NCBI GenBank assembly: GCA_017513625.1
Contig: JAFXEW010000002.1
Coordinates: 1 to 37,294, forward strand
DNA: 37,294 bases
Direction: 5' to 3'
DNA from: Lachnospiraceae bacterium
GTDB lineage: Bacteria; Bacillota; Clostridia; Lachnospirales; Lachnospiraceae
The notes beneath the pieces are model-generated. The model worked only from the letters and a program-made list of their open reading frames with translations. It was not told the DNA's origin and searched no databases. The position numbers and the translations under genes are program-made. Shown here one piece after another: positions 14,460 through 19,730 of this stretch; positions within the stretch are counted from its first letter, which is position 1; each line of letters opens with the position of its first letter.

Positions 14460-16412
14460 CTATTTAAACTTCTTAACCATTGCAGTCTCTGCATTAAGTT
14501 CCTCTGCAATCCTGTGGTTAATCTCCATGCCCCGGGCAATCTTATGCATATCCTTTACCATGGACCGGGTGTTATCTGCTGCATCAGTTATGCCGGTTAC
14601 GCTGTTCTCGATAGCAGCCAGAATCAAATCAATAGCACGTGTTATTGTGTCCAAAGTGTTATCCAGGCCGTTTGCACGGATATTCAGCTGTCTCATTACA
14701 CTCTCTACCTGCTGTGCATCTTCCTTGTAATTCTCACCTTCACTGACGAAGTTTTCAAATCCCGGAAGAATGGTCTCCGTCAGATAATCCAGCATCCATT
14801 TTGCGCTTTCTGCCAGATTCAGTACTGCATCCGTAACTACCGTATTCACCTTTTGAATACGGTTTGCCGCATCCTCACTGGAGCTTGCCAGCTCGCCGAT
14901 TTGACCTGCTACCACTGCAAATCCCTTACCGGCTTCCCCTGCTCTGGCCGCCTCAATGGAAGCATTCAAAGCCAGCAGATTGGTCTTATTGGCAATATTC
15001 AGAATCTCTTCCGTAAGCAGACTGACTTCCTTGATACTGTTACTCTTTTCAATCGCCGTTCCCAGACCGGCCAAAACTTCATCCACTCTTTGCCTTATTA
15101 CATCCCTGGTCTCTCTTGCCTGCTTTTCCATCCGGGTTGCACGTTGAGTCATATCTGTGGAATAAGTGCTCATGGACTTGGAATCTTCTGCAATACGTAC
15201 CACATCATCCGTAATAAATTCTGCTTTATCCTGTATTATGGCCGCATGACCTTCCACTTCCTGTAATGCCGCTGAAAGACCTCGTGTCAGATGTGCCAGG
15301 TCGCTTGCATTGATATCACTTTCTTTTACCGTATCAGCCACTTCACCTGCCAGCTTATTCAATTTTAAAGAGTTCATGCGCAGGGTTTTACTCATGCTTT
15401 GCAGCTTATCCAAAAACAAATTGGTACTCTCTGCCATGGTCCCCAGTTCATCATCATTTACCTTTGTAACACGCAGGGACAGATCCGCTTCACCGTTACT
15501 CATTGCTTTCGCAATGTCTGTCATTTCCTTCTTATTCTTCTCCAGTGGGATCAGCACCCTGCCAATCAGATTCACCAATGTCAGGCCAAAGAATATCACT
15601 GCCAATACTACCAGCACATTACTCTTTCCTGTTACGCTATGATATCCCGACTCAATATCAGCCTGCAACTCAGAAATATCTCCCTGTATCCTGCTTTCTT
15701 CTCCCGATACGGTTTTATAAATTACCTCAGCCGCCGCATCAAGCTCTTCCTTACATATCCTGTAAGCTTCTGCATTATTTCGGGCCGCGCTGGCTCCCAA
15801 TATATGTATGGTTGCCTCAACCATCCCGTCATAACTACTCCGGATAGTCTTTACCTTCTCCGGATCACCACATCCCGCATATGTAGCAATGGCAGTTTCC
15901 ATTGTAAGCTTCTGCTCGTTTATACGGTCCACAATCCCTGCCATATCTGCATAACTTACAGCCGCCATATGAGCGGTAACATGCTGCTGTAACTGCAATG
16001 TATCCTTCCTTATCTCCGAAAGTGCATGCAGCTCCTGCATATAGTCCGAGACAATGCTTTCCGCATTCCCGTTCATCTTTTTTGCCTGTCCTACAGCGCC
16101 TGCACCTGCACAGATTGCTATCAGTCCAAGCAAAAGCACGGGAATAAGTACTACTACAGGTACACTACGCATATACTTAGCCAAAAGTTTACGACGTTCC
16201 TGATTCCTTTTTTCTTTTGCCCGACGCCGTAATCTGTCTTCTCTTTCGAACTGCTTCAATTCATCCGGAGTCATATCAGACTTCTTAATCTTAACCTTCT
16301 TTTCCTTCAAAGACATCTCTTCCGACGTTTTTTCTCCCTGCATCACCACTGCGTTATCCGGAGTAACCTGCTCTGCATTCTTTTGAATCTTCATTCTTAT
16401 CCTATTGAACAT
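14460..16412 (-). CDS. Methyl-accepting chemotaxis protein paired with a binding protein
   Basis: 650-residue transmembrane chemoreceptor. Order: an unusual, highly charged cytoplasmic N-tail (1-80), TM1 (about 84-106), an extracytoplasmic helical sensor (about 110-260), TM2 (about 264-286), HAMP (about 287-340), then the coiled-coil signalling domain with its CheA/CheW-binding tip [20 protein letters not shown] (about 484-503). The ATG at 16412 lies inside the upstream solute-binding protein gene (11-base overlap) and has AGGAG nine bases upstream, so translation is coupled. The sensor likely reads the liganded lipoprotein rather than the free ligand (inference from gene pairing). No CheR-docking pentapeptide at the C-terminus. 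Confidence 0.93.
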
Positions 16413-17850
16413 CAGTAATCACTCCTTCTTCCGTAGTTTCTTCGTAAGGTTTACAGGCCTCATATACCTCTTCCCAGGTATCGTATCCTACCGGAAGTTC
16501 CACTACCGGATAAGTCACCGGTACCGGCACGAAGACACCTCCGTTTTCTATGGCCACCTGCAGATTATCCAGATTTTCCTGATAATCAACTACGCGTGCA
16601 CCCGCCTTTACCAATATAGTTCCTGTCCCCGTTTCTGTCAGCTGTTCATACTCAGGGAACTTGCTTTCATAGAGCCAGAGTGCATACGCCGAAAAAGCAG
16701 CTTCATATCCGGGCAGAGTCTCCTCTGCATAACAGAACTTCTCCTGCTGATTGATTGCTTTAATCAGCTGATTAGCCGTAGCTTCCGTGCTGTTTGCCAA
16801 AGAACTGTCAGTAGGCCTGTCTCCTTTCTCCTGCAAACGCAGACGCTGGTTCTCTTCATTGGTAAGATAGGAAGCCAGCTTGTGTGCCCAATCTGCATCC
16901 CTTGAATATGCATTTACGCCAACCAGACGATAATTTATGGGCGCACTCATATCCACCTGTCCCCCGGGGAATGCCACGGTAGGAATCCGCGCTATTCCAA
17001 GCTTATCTCCCCAAAGAGCCTTCAAATCCTCCAGCATATTCTGACTTCCGATAAGTCCCACTACTTCACCGTTCCTAATTCCCTCAAGCATTTCTCCATC
17101 GGTCAACGGTGCAAATCCGGGGCTGTTTGCAATATCTGTCATTCCCTGGGAAATCTCCGCACCGTCATGCACACCATAAATAGTATTTATATTGGTTTCA
17201 TTGCCGGTTCCTGCCTCATTTTCCCTGATATAGAGCTCTGCACTTCCCAAAAAGCAACAAAGCATATCCGGATCTGTCCAGTCCATGGCAAATTTCTTAC
17301 CCAAACGCTCTGCTTTATAAAGCGCCGTAGTTACACTGGCTGCTTCTGCCGCATTGATATAGTCCTTATTGAAAAAAGTAACATAACTGTCCGAAGTAGC
17401 CATGGGATAAGCATACAGCCTGTTATTAAATACAGCTGCATTAAAAGCATAAGATGTAACTTCCCGTTCCACTGCATCCGGCACCTGCACCGGGGCCAAT
17501 GCCCCTGCTGCCACCAGTGCATCCAGCTTCAAATGTTCAAATACAAACACATCTGCAGCTTTATCCATATCCGCAAGCACTGCTGTAGCCGCCGTTGCCT
17601 CCTCCATCTTTTCTACTTTAATATCAAATTCCGCCTGACCTCTGTTTTCCTCCTGAAAATTCTCCACCATCTTTATCAGAAGTGCCTGATCCTGTGCGCT
17701 TCCCCATACAGTCAGTTTCGCAATATTATCATCAGATTTTTCTATCATCTGCTCTACATTATCCGGTCCCTGCTGATTATCTTCTCCGCAACCGGTCATA
17801 CCAAGCACCATCGCAAATGCTAATCCCAACGCCCAAGCTTTCTTCATCAT
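16402..17850 (-). CDS. Extracellular solute-binding lipoprotein (family 1, sugar type)
   Basis: 482-residue lipoprotein of the ABC sugar-binding (MalE-like) group. Signal peptide [20 protein letters not shown] with lipobox LGMTGC; the mature Cys anchors it to the outer face of the membrane. Family hallmarks: [20 protein letters not shown] at the start of lobe 1, [18 protein letters not shown] (about 147-164), and [18 protein letters not shown] (about 267-284). The upstream TTG at 17856 lies only 3 bases from AGGAG, so I use the ATG at 17850 (9 bases). No permease or ATPase gene is adjacent; instead the 3' end overlaps an MCP gene by 11 bases. A role as a sensing rather than transport component is inferred. 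Ligand unknown, probably a sugar. Confidence 0.9.
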
Positions 17851-17882
17851 AACCAAGGTCTCCTTTGTATCATGCTACTATT

Positions 17883-17888
17883 ATTATA
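17883..17888 (-). promoter_or_regulatory. Candidate -10 of the binding-protein/MCP operon
   Basis: Minus strand TATAAT 32 bases before the ATG at 17850, in an AT-rich stretch. No good -35 at 17 bases (nearest ATGACT), so activator dependence is possible. Confidence 0.45.
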
Positions 17889-17995
17889 CTAAAAAATACA
17901 TTTCAAGTCATGCAGTTTTTTGCCATTTTCTCGCTTTTCTTTGCTTTTTTCAGATTTCTTCAGATACCCTTTTCGCAGCACTTCTTCGAAAGTTC

Positions 17996-18637
17996 AGAAA
18001 AAGAGGACTCATAGCCAATGTCATTAAGTTGCCCCCCTGTCTTGCCCCGTGTCCTGCATCGGAGCCCCAAGCTAGGCGGAAAAGCGTTGAGACAAATGTG
18101 AGCGTTTCTCAGAGGTGACCTTTCCAATCGGTTTTGTGTCTTTTCATGGCAAGAACACCTGCCACGGCTTTGTCCGCAGGGACTGTACACCGGCTATTGC
18201 GGGAAGTAAATGTGGAATTTCTAAATGTGCGTCTTTGGAAATCTGTGATTAGTCCCTGTTTTTATGAGCTGGGACAAAATAAGCGCCCTGTTCGCGGTAT
18301 TCGGAATGCAGAGTTAAAACTCTACCTTCCGCCTACCACGGACAGGGCGCTTTTTTGTTCAAGACCATAAAAACAGGAACCTGATTCCAAAGAATCGCAC
18401 ATAAGAAATTCTCACATTTACTTCTAAAGCAATATCCGGCGTACAGCTCCTGCGAACTAAGCCGGGCAGGTGTACTTCCTCGAAAAGACGCAAATAATAA
18501 GGGATTGGAAAGGTGCCTCTGTCAGAAACACCACATTTGGCGATTCGTTTTCCGCCTAGCTTGGGGCTCCGATGCAGGGCACGGGACAAGACAGGCGGCT
18601 TAACTTAATGACAATGGCACAAGACACTCTTTCTAGG
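17996..18637. repeat. Giant imperfect palindrome (about 640 bp)
   Basis: The 776 bases between the binding-protein gene and the HD-GYP gene hold no convincing gene. They form one long inverted repeat centred near 18316: a left arm (about 17996-18300) and a right arm (about 18333-18637) are reverse complements at roughly three quarters of positions by eye, including one 31-base perfect block (18053-18083 against 18548-18578). The apex is itself a tight hairpin (18281-18352). The right edge reaches the stop codon of the HD-GYP gene. Transcribed on either strand, it would fold into a long hairpin. It may be a fold-back element, two inverted copies of a dispersed repeat, or a structured RNA. Short ORFs inside (76-79 codons) look accidental. 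Confidence 0.85.
18281..18356 (+). terminator. Apical hairpin with T-run in the giant palindrome
   Basis: Nested stem: AAGCGCCCTGT (18281-18291) with ACAGGGCGCTT (18342-18352), then GGTA/TACC, CGGAA/TTCCG and AGAGTT/AACTCT around an AA loop, followed by T6. It has the form of a strong intrinsic terminator for plus-strand transcription; the minus-strand tail is also T-rich. Confidence 0.6.
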
Positions 18638-19730
18638 AATAAATAAATTCATTCTCTACTGCCTCAAAGAAATAGGGCTGCACCATTCCGAAGCACTCCA
18701 GCACAGTAGGTGAAAATGCTCCGCATTCACCTGCCAGTATCATTGCCGCAGCCGTATTGGTGGGATACGCGTCCTTATACACGCGCTTACTTACCAGGTC
18801 ATCAAATGCATCGCAAAGACCTACTATCTCGGCCCACACAGGGATATCATCTCCTCGCAGATGCTCTGGATATCCCATACCGTCATATCTTTCATGATGA
18901 TATCTTACAATATCATAACAATATTTGTAAAAATCATCATCCTCGCGCTTGAAGTTCTCCAGAATCTCACATCCCAGTATAGTATGTCTCTGATACTTTT
19001 CCGTCTCTTCTCTGGTCAGCTCTCCTGCTTTAAACAGAATAGAATCCGGTATCGCCACCTTACCGATATCATGCAGTGCAGATGCTGCCACGATATCATT
19101 AACCTCTTCCTGGCTCAAATTACATTCAGGATACATTCTCACATAATTTTCCATCATCTTTTTCACAAAATAACGGACTCTCTTGATATGTACACTGGTC
19201 TCCAGTCCTCGGAACTCTACAACGGAACCTAATGCATTTATGAGAAATTCGTGAGTCTTTTGCAGTTTTTCCTGACTCGCCAGCATCAATGCCTGGCTCT
19301 CCCTGAGCTCTTCCGTACGGTTTTCCAACTGTTCCTCAATATTCATGCGGTTTTCAAAGAGTTGGATAATATTCATGGTACGTCGCATAACCACACGCTG
19401 TGAAAAAGGCTTATATATTACATCACTGGTTCCCAGTTCATATGCTCTCTCCTCGTATTCCGGTGTAGCCTCACCCGTAATCATAATTACGGGAATGGTA
19501 TCCATATAGCCCTTCTCGTTCATGAATTCCAACACGTCAATACCGTTTTTATTAGGCATCATCAAATCCAGAAATACCACCTTTATTTCCTCATGATAAC
19601 GTTTCAACTGCTCTATCGCTATTTCACCGTCTTCAGCCATGAGAATAAAATACTGTTCCTGAAATATTTCCTTCAGTATCTCTCTGTTTATTTCTGCATC
19701 ATCCACGATTAAAACTTTATTGCTTTCCAT
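18633..19730 (-). CDS. Response regulator with HD-GYP domain (c-di-GMP phosphodiesterase type)
   Basis: 365 residues: CheY-like receiver (1-125; phospho-acceptor Asp55 in VVFLDLMMP, Thr in MITGEA, Lys107 in IYKPFS), a coiled-coil linker (about 127-160), then an HD-GYP domain. The catalytic set is complete: GLETSVHIKRV (175-185), HDIGK (220-224), H249, HHE (278-280) and DGMGYP (283-288). HD-GYP enzymes hydrolyse cyclic-di-GMP to pGpG or GMP; activity here is expected from motifs. Last gene of the chemosensory operon, 43 bases after the MCP gene, so the chemosensory signal can plausibly control c-di-GMP. ATG start at 19730 with AGGAT-like site. The giant palindrome begins at its stop codon. Confidence 0.92.
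   Translation of the reverse strand: MESNKVLIVDDAEINREILKEIFQEQYFILMAEDGEIAIEQLKRYHEEIKVVFLDLMMPNKNGIDVLEFMNEKGYMDTIPVIMITGEATPEYEERAYELGTSDVIYKPFSQRVVMRRTMNIIQLFENRMNIEEQLENRTEELRESQALMLASQEKLQKTHEFLINALGSVVEFRGLETSVHIKRVRYFVKKMMENYVRMYPECNLSQEEVNDIVAASALHDIGKVAIPDSILFKAGELTREETEKYQRHTILGCEILENFKREDDDFYKYCYDIVRYHHERYDGMGYPEHLRGDDIPVWAEIVGLCDAFDDLVSKRVYKDAYPTNTAAAMILAGECGAFSPTVLECFGMVQPYFFEAVENEFIYS

Follow-up and report, generated by a model that had tools for sequence, protein, structure and literature searches.

The long near-palindrome between a solute-binding-protein gene and a response-regulator gene in a 37,294-nucleotide stretch of a Lachnospiraceae bacterium genome (contig JAFXEW010000002.1, positions 1 to 37,294; here called the window) is one copy of a dispersed, multi-copy, non-coding element with terminal inverted repeats. 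We consider it probable that the element is a REP/MITE-like mobile DNA, presumably non-autonomous, that forms a hairpin along its whole length and occupies the positions of transcription terminators. Comparison of the copies, at the level of sequence, establishes a repeat family, a layered anatomy, exchange between the arms, a preferred location and an ordinary terminator at an orthologous junction.

The preliminary description reported a palindrome of about 640 bp, and both self-alignment and folding against shuffled sequences confirm a single whole-length hairpin of 633 bp (Table 1), corresponding to positions 1505 to 2137 of locus L001 (contig positions 16496-20137). Local alignment of the arms gives 259 identities, 41 mismatches and 31 gap positions, i.e., an identity of ∼86% over the 300 aligned bases or ∼75 to 78% with gaps counted, close to the ∼75% previously estimated by eye. 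The 31-base perfect block and the T6 tract directly after the apex stem, both noted earlier, are present. The RNA fold of positions 17996-18637 has a minimum free energy of −395.5 kcal/mol, compared to a mean of −188.2 kcal/mol (sd, 7.1) for 20 shuffles; at this distance (z, −29), the self-complementarity is not due to chance. The whole intergenic gap (17857-18632) had been described as palindromic; this holds for 633 of its 776 bases but not for the 143 bases adjoining the start of the solute-binding-protein gene. Within or immediately next to this non-palindromic part there are three sigma70-like matches, compared to 1.1 expected by chance. At its right edge the palindrome touches a TAG stop codon (CTA at 18633-18635), as stated earlier. 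This stop belongs to the response-regulator/HD-domain gene, whose neighbors are an MCP gene and a CheA-like gene, and the window copy itself lies between tandem genes.

Table 1. Positions of the hairpin element, its parts and its flanking genes in the window
Feature	Position	Strand	Basis or remark
Flanking gene, extracellular solute-binding protein	16402..17856	-	Gene and domain calls
Quasi-palindrome, whole hairpin element	18000..18632	.	633 bp; alignment to own reverse complement; fold z −29
Left outer stem, copy-specific	18000..18092	.	End motif GCCAATGTCATTAAGTT at 18014-18030
Conserved body (A arm left, B arm right, apex included)	18093..18539	.	Alignment of 15 bodies
Core used for covariance model R1	18232..18393	+	Core alignment
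A-arm motif TTTTTATGAGCTGGGACAAAA	18259..18279	+	≤1 mismatch across typed copies
Apex stem with A-tract and T6 tract, resembling a bidirectional intrinsic terminator	18277..18356	.	82% complementary; read from sequence
B-arm motif TTTTTATGGTCTTGAACAAAA	18353..18373	-	≤1 mismatch across typed copies
Right outer stem, copy-specific	18540..18632	.	End motif AACTTAATGACAATGGC at 18602-18618
Flanking gene, response regulator receiver with HD domain; stop adjoins hairpin	18633..19730	-	Gene and domain calls

As judged from the alignments, each copy is built of three layers: a copy-specific outer stem, a conserved body of ∼450 bp and a terminator-like apex. In the body, the same arm is 0.90 to 0.91 identical between copies of one genome, whereas the A and B arms of a single copy, which differ at fixed places, are only 0.76 identical (nine copies from the window's own genome and five from its relative SIG330, referred to below as G000 and G029, respectively). 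This order is reversed in the outer 50 bp next to the body, where the arms of one copy share 0.79 identity in G000 (range, 0.60 to 0.86) and 0.89 in G029, compared to 0.59 to 0.64 between copies and about 0.5 after shuffling. The reversal indicates a conserved asymmetric body enclosed by self-complementary stems that are specific to each copy. The choice offered in the preliminary description, between an old element under folding selection and two diverged copies of a repeat, misses this arrangement, in which outer and apex stems change in concert around the body. Among 30 copies examined, the inner motif pair (TTTTTATGAGCTGGGACAAAA in A, TTTTTATGGTCTTGAACAAAA in B) is heterotypic in all 28 that could be typed on both sides. 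The aligned bodies contain fixed internal loops, and at the apex A- and T-tracts stand on opposite sides of a stem whose sequence varies while its pairing is largely retained. Most elements are about 450 to 650 bp long, but shortened copies can be as small as 114 bp; both arms are shortened in L067 (128 bp) and L068 (114 bp), and L064 is a remnant lacking the full hairpin. No open reading frame within any of 40 copies, partial ones included, passed a crude gene caller.

In G000, a 2.17-Mb draft that is 82% complete, a DNA search in which 40 of 48 candidates were scored returned 62 matches from 33 distinct places; the shortest match is 55 bp, and some places have matches of only 55 to 160 bp. 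At least 16 of the 33 places are ≤15 bases from the end of a contig, which puts the element count at some 25 to 33, i.e., at least about 25. Of 60 relatives searched, 36 of them in the same genus, one carries copies: G029 (Lachnospiraceae bacterium SIG330, SVFK01), a metagenome-assembled draft that is 84% complete. Searched with one of its own copies, G029 yielded 35 matches at 17 places (∼75% identical). A covariance model of the core, run against 138 genomes of the genus (G000 included) with stricter filters that lose weak matches, detected G000, G029 and, weakly, a third member of the genus, G097. The G097 element is a diverged relative whose own copy matches six places; four of these hold palindromes (111, 111, 188 and 329 bp), and the two without are cut by contig ends. 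Both 111-bp palindromes likewise lie at contig ends and could be the two halves of a single palindrome. The preliminary proposal of a repeat family or fold-back mobile element, which called for counting copies and asking whether they occur singly or paired, is upheld by these numbers, as the arms are paired in 27 of 27 copies with both flanks present.

Beyond these genomes, the exact 31-mer was absent from the genome-contig collection searched. The body motif TTTTTATGRKCTKGRACAAAA occurred there in 25 stretches: all nine with a facing pair are from SIG330, as are four of the single-match stretches, and the remaining 12, from other records, are about what we would expect by chance. Viral contigs held two single matches to it. 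Distant blastn searches of plasmids and phages gave no match to the window body, nor to one hairpin from another genome, G030.

The coincidence of so many places with contig ends might suggest an assembly fold-back artefact, a possibility raised in the preliminary description. This is hardly credible, as the arms are non-identical, the outer stems differ from locus to locus and copies lie inside contigs of two separate assemblies.

In a tree of 10 G000 and nine G029 bodies (L052 represented by its 161-base core only), the two genomes separate with a support of 1.000. The copies at the galE-HlyIII junction follow this split, so that site-mates are not grouped together, and separation despite one pair at a shared junction indicates species-specific amplification or homogenization. 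Two sites are common to both species on both flanks (galE and L021/L064), and the pair L002/L047 has only its right-hand genes in common; some copies are therefore old.

Both flanks could be assessed, with a crude codon-usage gene caller, for 27 copies (12 of the 33 places in G000 and 15 of the 17 in G029, the G029 set excluding remnant L064 and a 30-bp match). Seventeen lie between convergent genes, 10 between tandem genes and none between divergent genes, compared to 37 convergent, 280 tandem and 39 divergent among 356 sampled junctions with a gap of ≥30 (Fisher P for the convergent excess, 9e-10). A stop codon lies inside or ≤20 bp from the palindrome in 22 of the 27 copies and ≤58 bp from it in all 27. 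Purifying selection against insertion elsewhere could by itself account for the convergent bias.

The apex resembles a bidirectional intrinsic terminator, and the element may double as a two-way transcription stop. A consensus terminator scan of positions 17800-18800, where 1.3 would be expected by chance, reported no terminator; presumably a long imperfect stem does not satisfy the scan's requirements for stem and tail. The earlier proposal that the element insulates two operons thus keeps part of its ground: the terminator-like apex and the location of copies at gene 3′ ends make it plausible, and the blank scan goes against it.

Orthologous junctions connect the element with ordinary terminators. 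At the prfB-DUF975 junction, G000 holds the element, while G029 holds a plain short terminator (AAAGCGGGTGTTGCAAACTATTTTGCAACACCCGCTTT). At galE, the element lies beside an HlyIII-like gene in both species; among the top 30 of 61 searched genomes (G000 included), an HlyIII gene is close by galE in 16 of the 29 others, all of the same genus. Several relatives carry short terminator-like hairpins at the galE-HlyIII junction (e.g., L082, L087, L091 and L092), some carry no recognized hairpin, and G007 carries a 181-bp hairpin of different sequence. Downstream of galE in G006, where the HlyIII neighbor is absent, there is a 93-bp palindrome (L099:2558-2650).

In some hairpins, not all of the window family, the outer stem extends into a neighboring gene. 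At L193 of G007, one arm includes the final 26 bp of a DUF436 gene, and the other arm, outside any called gene, contains an 18-bp exact inverted copy of this gene end; the Pfam match of the DUF436 protein reaches the end of the profile two residues before the stop. In G097, the 329-bp hairpin L180:1436-1764 has 53 exactly complementary outermost bases, the first 15 of which are the end of a MatE gene. Within the window family, the prfB copy of G000 pairs the ends of its two neighboring genes over 34 columns. DUF975 orthologues often end in M-K/N-P, i.e., similarly regardless of any hairpin, and the prfB copy was accordingly downgraded as proof of flank capture; its pairing of gene ends is only weakly consistent with capture.

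These junctions bear on the proposal that the hairpins are immobile terminators that grew to giant palindromes by repeated fold-back synthesis, their body being spread by ectopic gene conversion. Ordinary terminators at orthologous junctions, stems extending into the DUF436 and MatE gene ends and the recurrence of the same design with unrelated bodies in other genomes are all in keeping with such growth. We nevertheless regard it as unlikely, as placing a ∼450-bp body at ∼25 otherwise different sites, loci that share only a hairpin, would need frequent ectopic transfer. A mobile, terminator-occupying hairpin remains the preferred reading.

The two arms of each copy appear to have been copied from each other. 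Nineteen copies were typed at inner and outer motifs: 14 are consistent, three carry a single outer type on both arms (L010, L031 and L050) and two have swapped arms (L014 and L047). Deviation is also seen in L021 and L046, for which only one outer side was typed. According to PMC8604942, template switching between short inverted repeats yields arm homogenization and inversion of the spacer, and we take the conversions (3/19) and swaps (2/19) to be fingerprints of this process. The inner pair is homogenized in 0 of 28 copies, which suggests that the A/B asymmetry is itself kept by selection.

Exchange between the arms is also central to whether the element is a large structured RNA, such as a rod-like 3′ untranslated region or a processed non-coding RNA, whose fold is maintained by selection, as the preliminary description had considered. 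Standard pairs make up 97.4% of the pair cells in the alignment of 15 bodies. Changes on both sides occur in 47 of 153 pairs, compared to a shuffled mean of 35.1 (0 of 500 shuffles as high; slid controls, 4 to 17), and in 229 cells, compared to 80.7. Together with the fixed internal loops, these values would fit a conserved RNA. However, many of the two-sided changes follow a 9:6 split between the two species and so represent fewer events than cells, and conversion and swapping of arms generate covariation without selection, so that even strong pair statistics do not by themselves establish a structured RNA. In 14 copies, the arm positions that depart from Watson-Crick pairing comprise 58 G·T and 72 A·C, with no wobble excess, and a transcript ending at the apex would contain one arm only. 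The window has no match in Rfam 15 at the gathering score; a permissive search with eight loci returned sub-threshold miRNA matches, which we take to be generic hairpin matches. Pair-preserving changes are abundant, as folding selection would predict, but copying from arm to arm explains them too, and we consider an RNA kept by its fold distinctly unlikely.

The favored mobile hairpin resembles several known systems in part. Bacterial MITEs include Correia, RUP and bcr1. As in these, the window element is non-coding, multi-copy and bounded by inverted arms; it differs in that the arms make up the entire element and no target duplication is seen by eye. In the usual position of its copies and in its apex of A-tract, GC stem and T-tract it resembles bidirectional intrinsic terminators of convergent genes, but it has up to about 250 bp of extra stem on each side and the same body at many loci. 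Integron attC sites are much shorter than the window element. They are folded imperfect palindromes of variable sequence (PMC2727003, in part), and recognition of a folded strand is an analogy only. Quasi-palindrome template switching, as far as covered in the sections of PMC8604942 and PMC7202029 considered, shares the homogenization of arms and inversion of the enclosed part but concerns short inverted repeats and a mutational process, whereas the window family is an element. Nematomorpha mitochondria contain coding palindromes, whose perfect inverted repeats reach 142 bp per arm (PMC6649704, in part); there too inverted repeats overlap coding sequence, but within mitochondrial genes, whereas the window family is dispersed and has a conserved body. 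No published description of elements like these was recognized in the literature searched, mostly at the level of titles and the beginnings of abstracts.

The closest likeness is to REP, BIME and REPIN sequences associated with RAYT (PMC3733652 and PMC3116915, both in part), which are also dispersed palindromic DNA at gene 3′ ends, mostly convergent or tandem. In the part of PMC3733652 referred to, REP units are 20 to 40 bp long and sit between unidirectional and convergent open reading frames, downstream of coding regions. The window family occupies the same niche, being extragenic and 3′ of genes with the orientations given above. Palindromic pairs mobilized by RAYT, a Y1 transposase, are nevertheless a highly improbable explanation. 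In size and repeat layout the window element does not correspond to 20- to 40-bp units with a GTAG/CGTC tag: it is one continuous hairpin of ≤650 bp with copy-specific outer stems. No Y1/RAYT transposase (PF01797) was found in the carriers G000 and G029, both incomplete drafts, in a search that covered 41 genomes other than G097, detected the domain in 12 and had Y1 as its sole class of mobilizing enzyme. The flanks, read by eye, contained no consistent direct repeat that would represent a target-site duplication, and the compared loci included no clean pair of empty and filled sites within one species.

Long palindromes are regarded as unstable in bacteria. Loss of SbcCD was considered as a condition permitting them and rejected: SbcD (TIGR00619) scores above the cut-off in G000, G029, G007 and G097, so that in G000 and G029 the hairpins persist although the gene is present. 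The G030 match is in two pieces. Matches fall below the cut-off in the hairpin-poor G006 and G012; G068 breaks this pattern, with only a match below the cut-off yet a 223-bp palindrome (L114:2747-2969), which lies near prfB.

We propose the following mechanism for the mobile hairpin. The body would be the part recognized by a trans-acting enzyme, and its fixed A/B asymmetry would orient the folded strand. Copies would survive at former bidirectional-terminator sites because the apex terminates both neighboring transcripts. Fold-back (template-switch) DNA synthesis would copy arm onto arm, maintaining the palindrome and lengthening the outer stem into the flanks. More speculatively, the hairpins may represent a new class of mobile DNA whose moving form is a long folded strand, its strand-asymmetric body read by an enzyme, terminator hairpins being occupied and the outer stem built by copying the end of the flanking gene across, with several sequence-unrelated families in one Lachnospiraceae genus; as a whole, this wider proposal is rather unlikely.

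Carrier genomes keep dozens of long palindromes despite a full SbcD match in both main carriers, and the window family provides natural replicates in which the concerted conversion, swapping and shortening of palindromes can be followed. It allows one to ask whether covariation arises without RNA selection and offers a route to the enzyme that spreads whole-length hairpins. Two warnings follow: covariation tests can mislead on near-palindromes, and giant-hairpin copies tend to coincide with contig breaks.

Hairpin bodies in other genomes are of unrelated sequence but the same design. A family in G007, with no detected similarity to the window element, forms palindromes of 180 to 382 bp at six of seven places. 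A palindrome scan (score, ≥100; N bases excluded) of a small sample, uneven across genomes, found four in 223 kb of G000, five in 376 kb of G029, one in 107 kb of G007, one in 280 kb of G030 and none in 400 kb of G006 or 100 kb of G012. The window family accounts for two of the five in G029; the four in G000 are on contigs with no window-family match, and the G000 sample, having left out several low-numbered contigs with known copies, is not unbiased for that family. Copies of other families (n = 17) comprise 4 convergent, 11 tandem and 2 divergent, with no convergent excess, so that the convergent bias is, as far as seen, specific to the window family.

Further hairpins were observed in these genomes. 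A second giant-hairpin family in G000 (L225:11566-11797, L238:7856-8116 and L238:19204-19429) has the body GCAAACGATTCAACTGCG...GTTGCAGTGTTTGC and outer stems that are largely copy-specific, and L238:2041-2338 is a further palindrome of 298 bp. SIG330 also has a second family, with the body GTTTGTCATCTACAGGAG...CGCAAAC at L244:4966-5197 and L249:17926-18173 and only part of that body at L244:18162-18276. In G030, the hairpins L310:17095-17291 and L308:19105-19327 have bodies bounded by GCAAAC...GTTTGC and a TTTGAGCCATTTATGGCGAGTTTT apex; several otherwise different hairpin bodies seem to be bounded by GCAAAYG. The longest of those listed is a 689-bp quasi-palindrome in G007 (L289:2668-3356).
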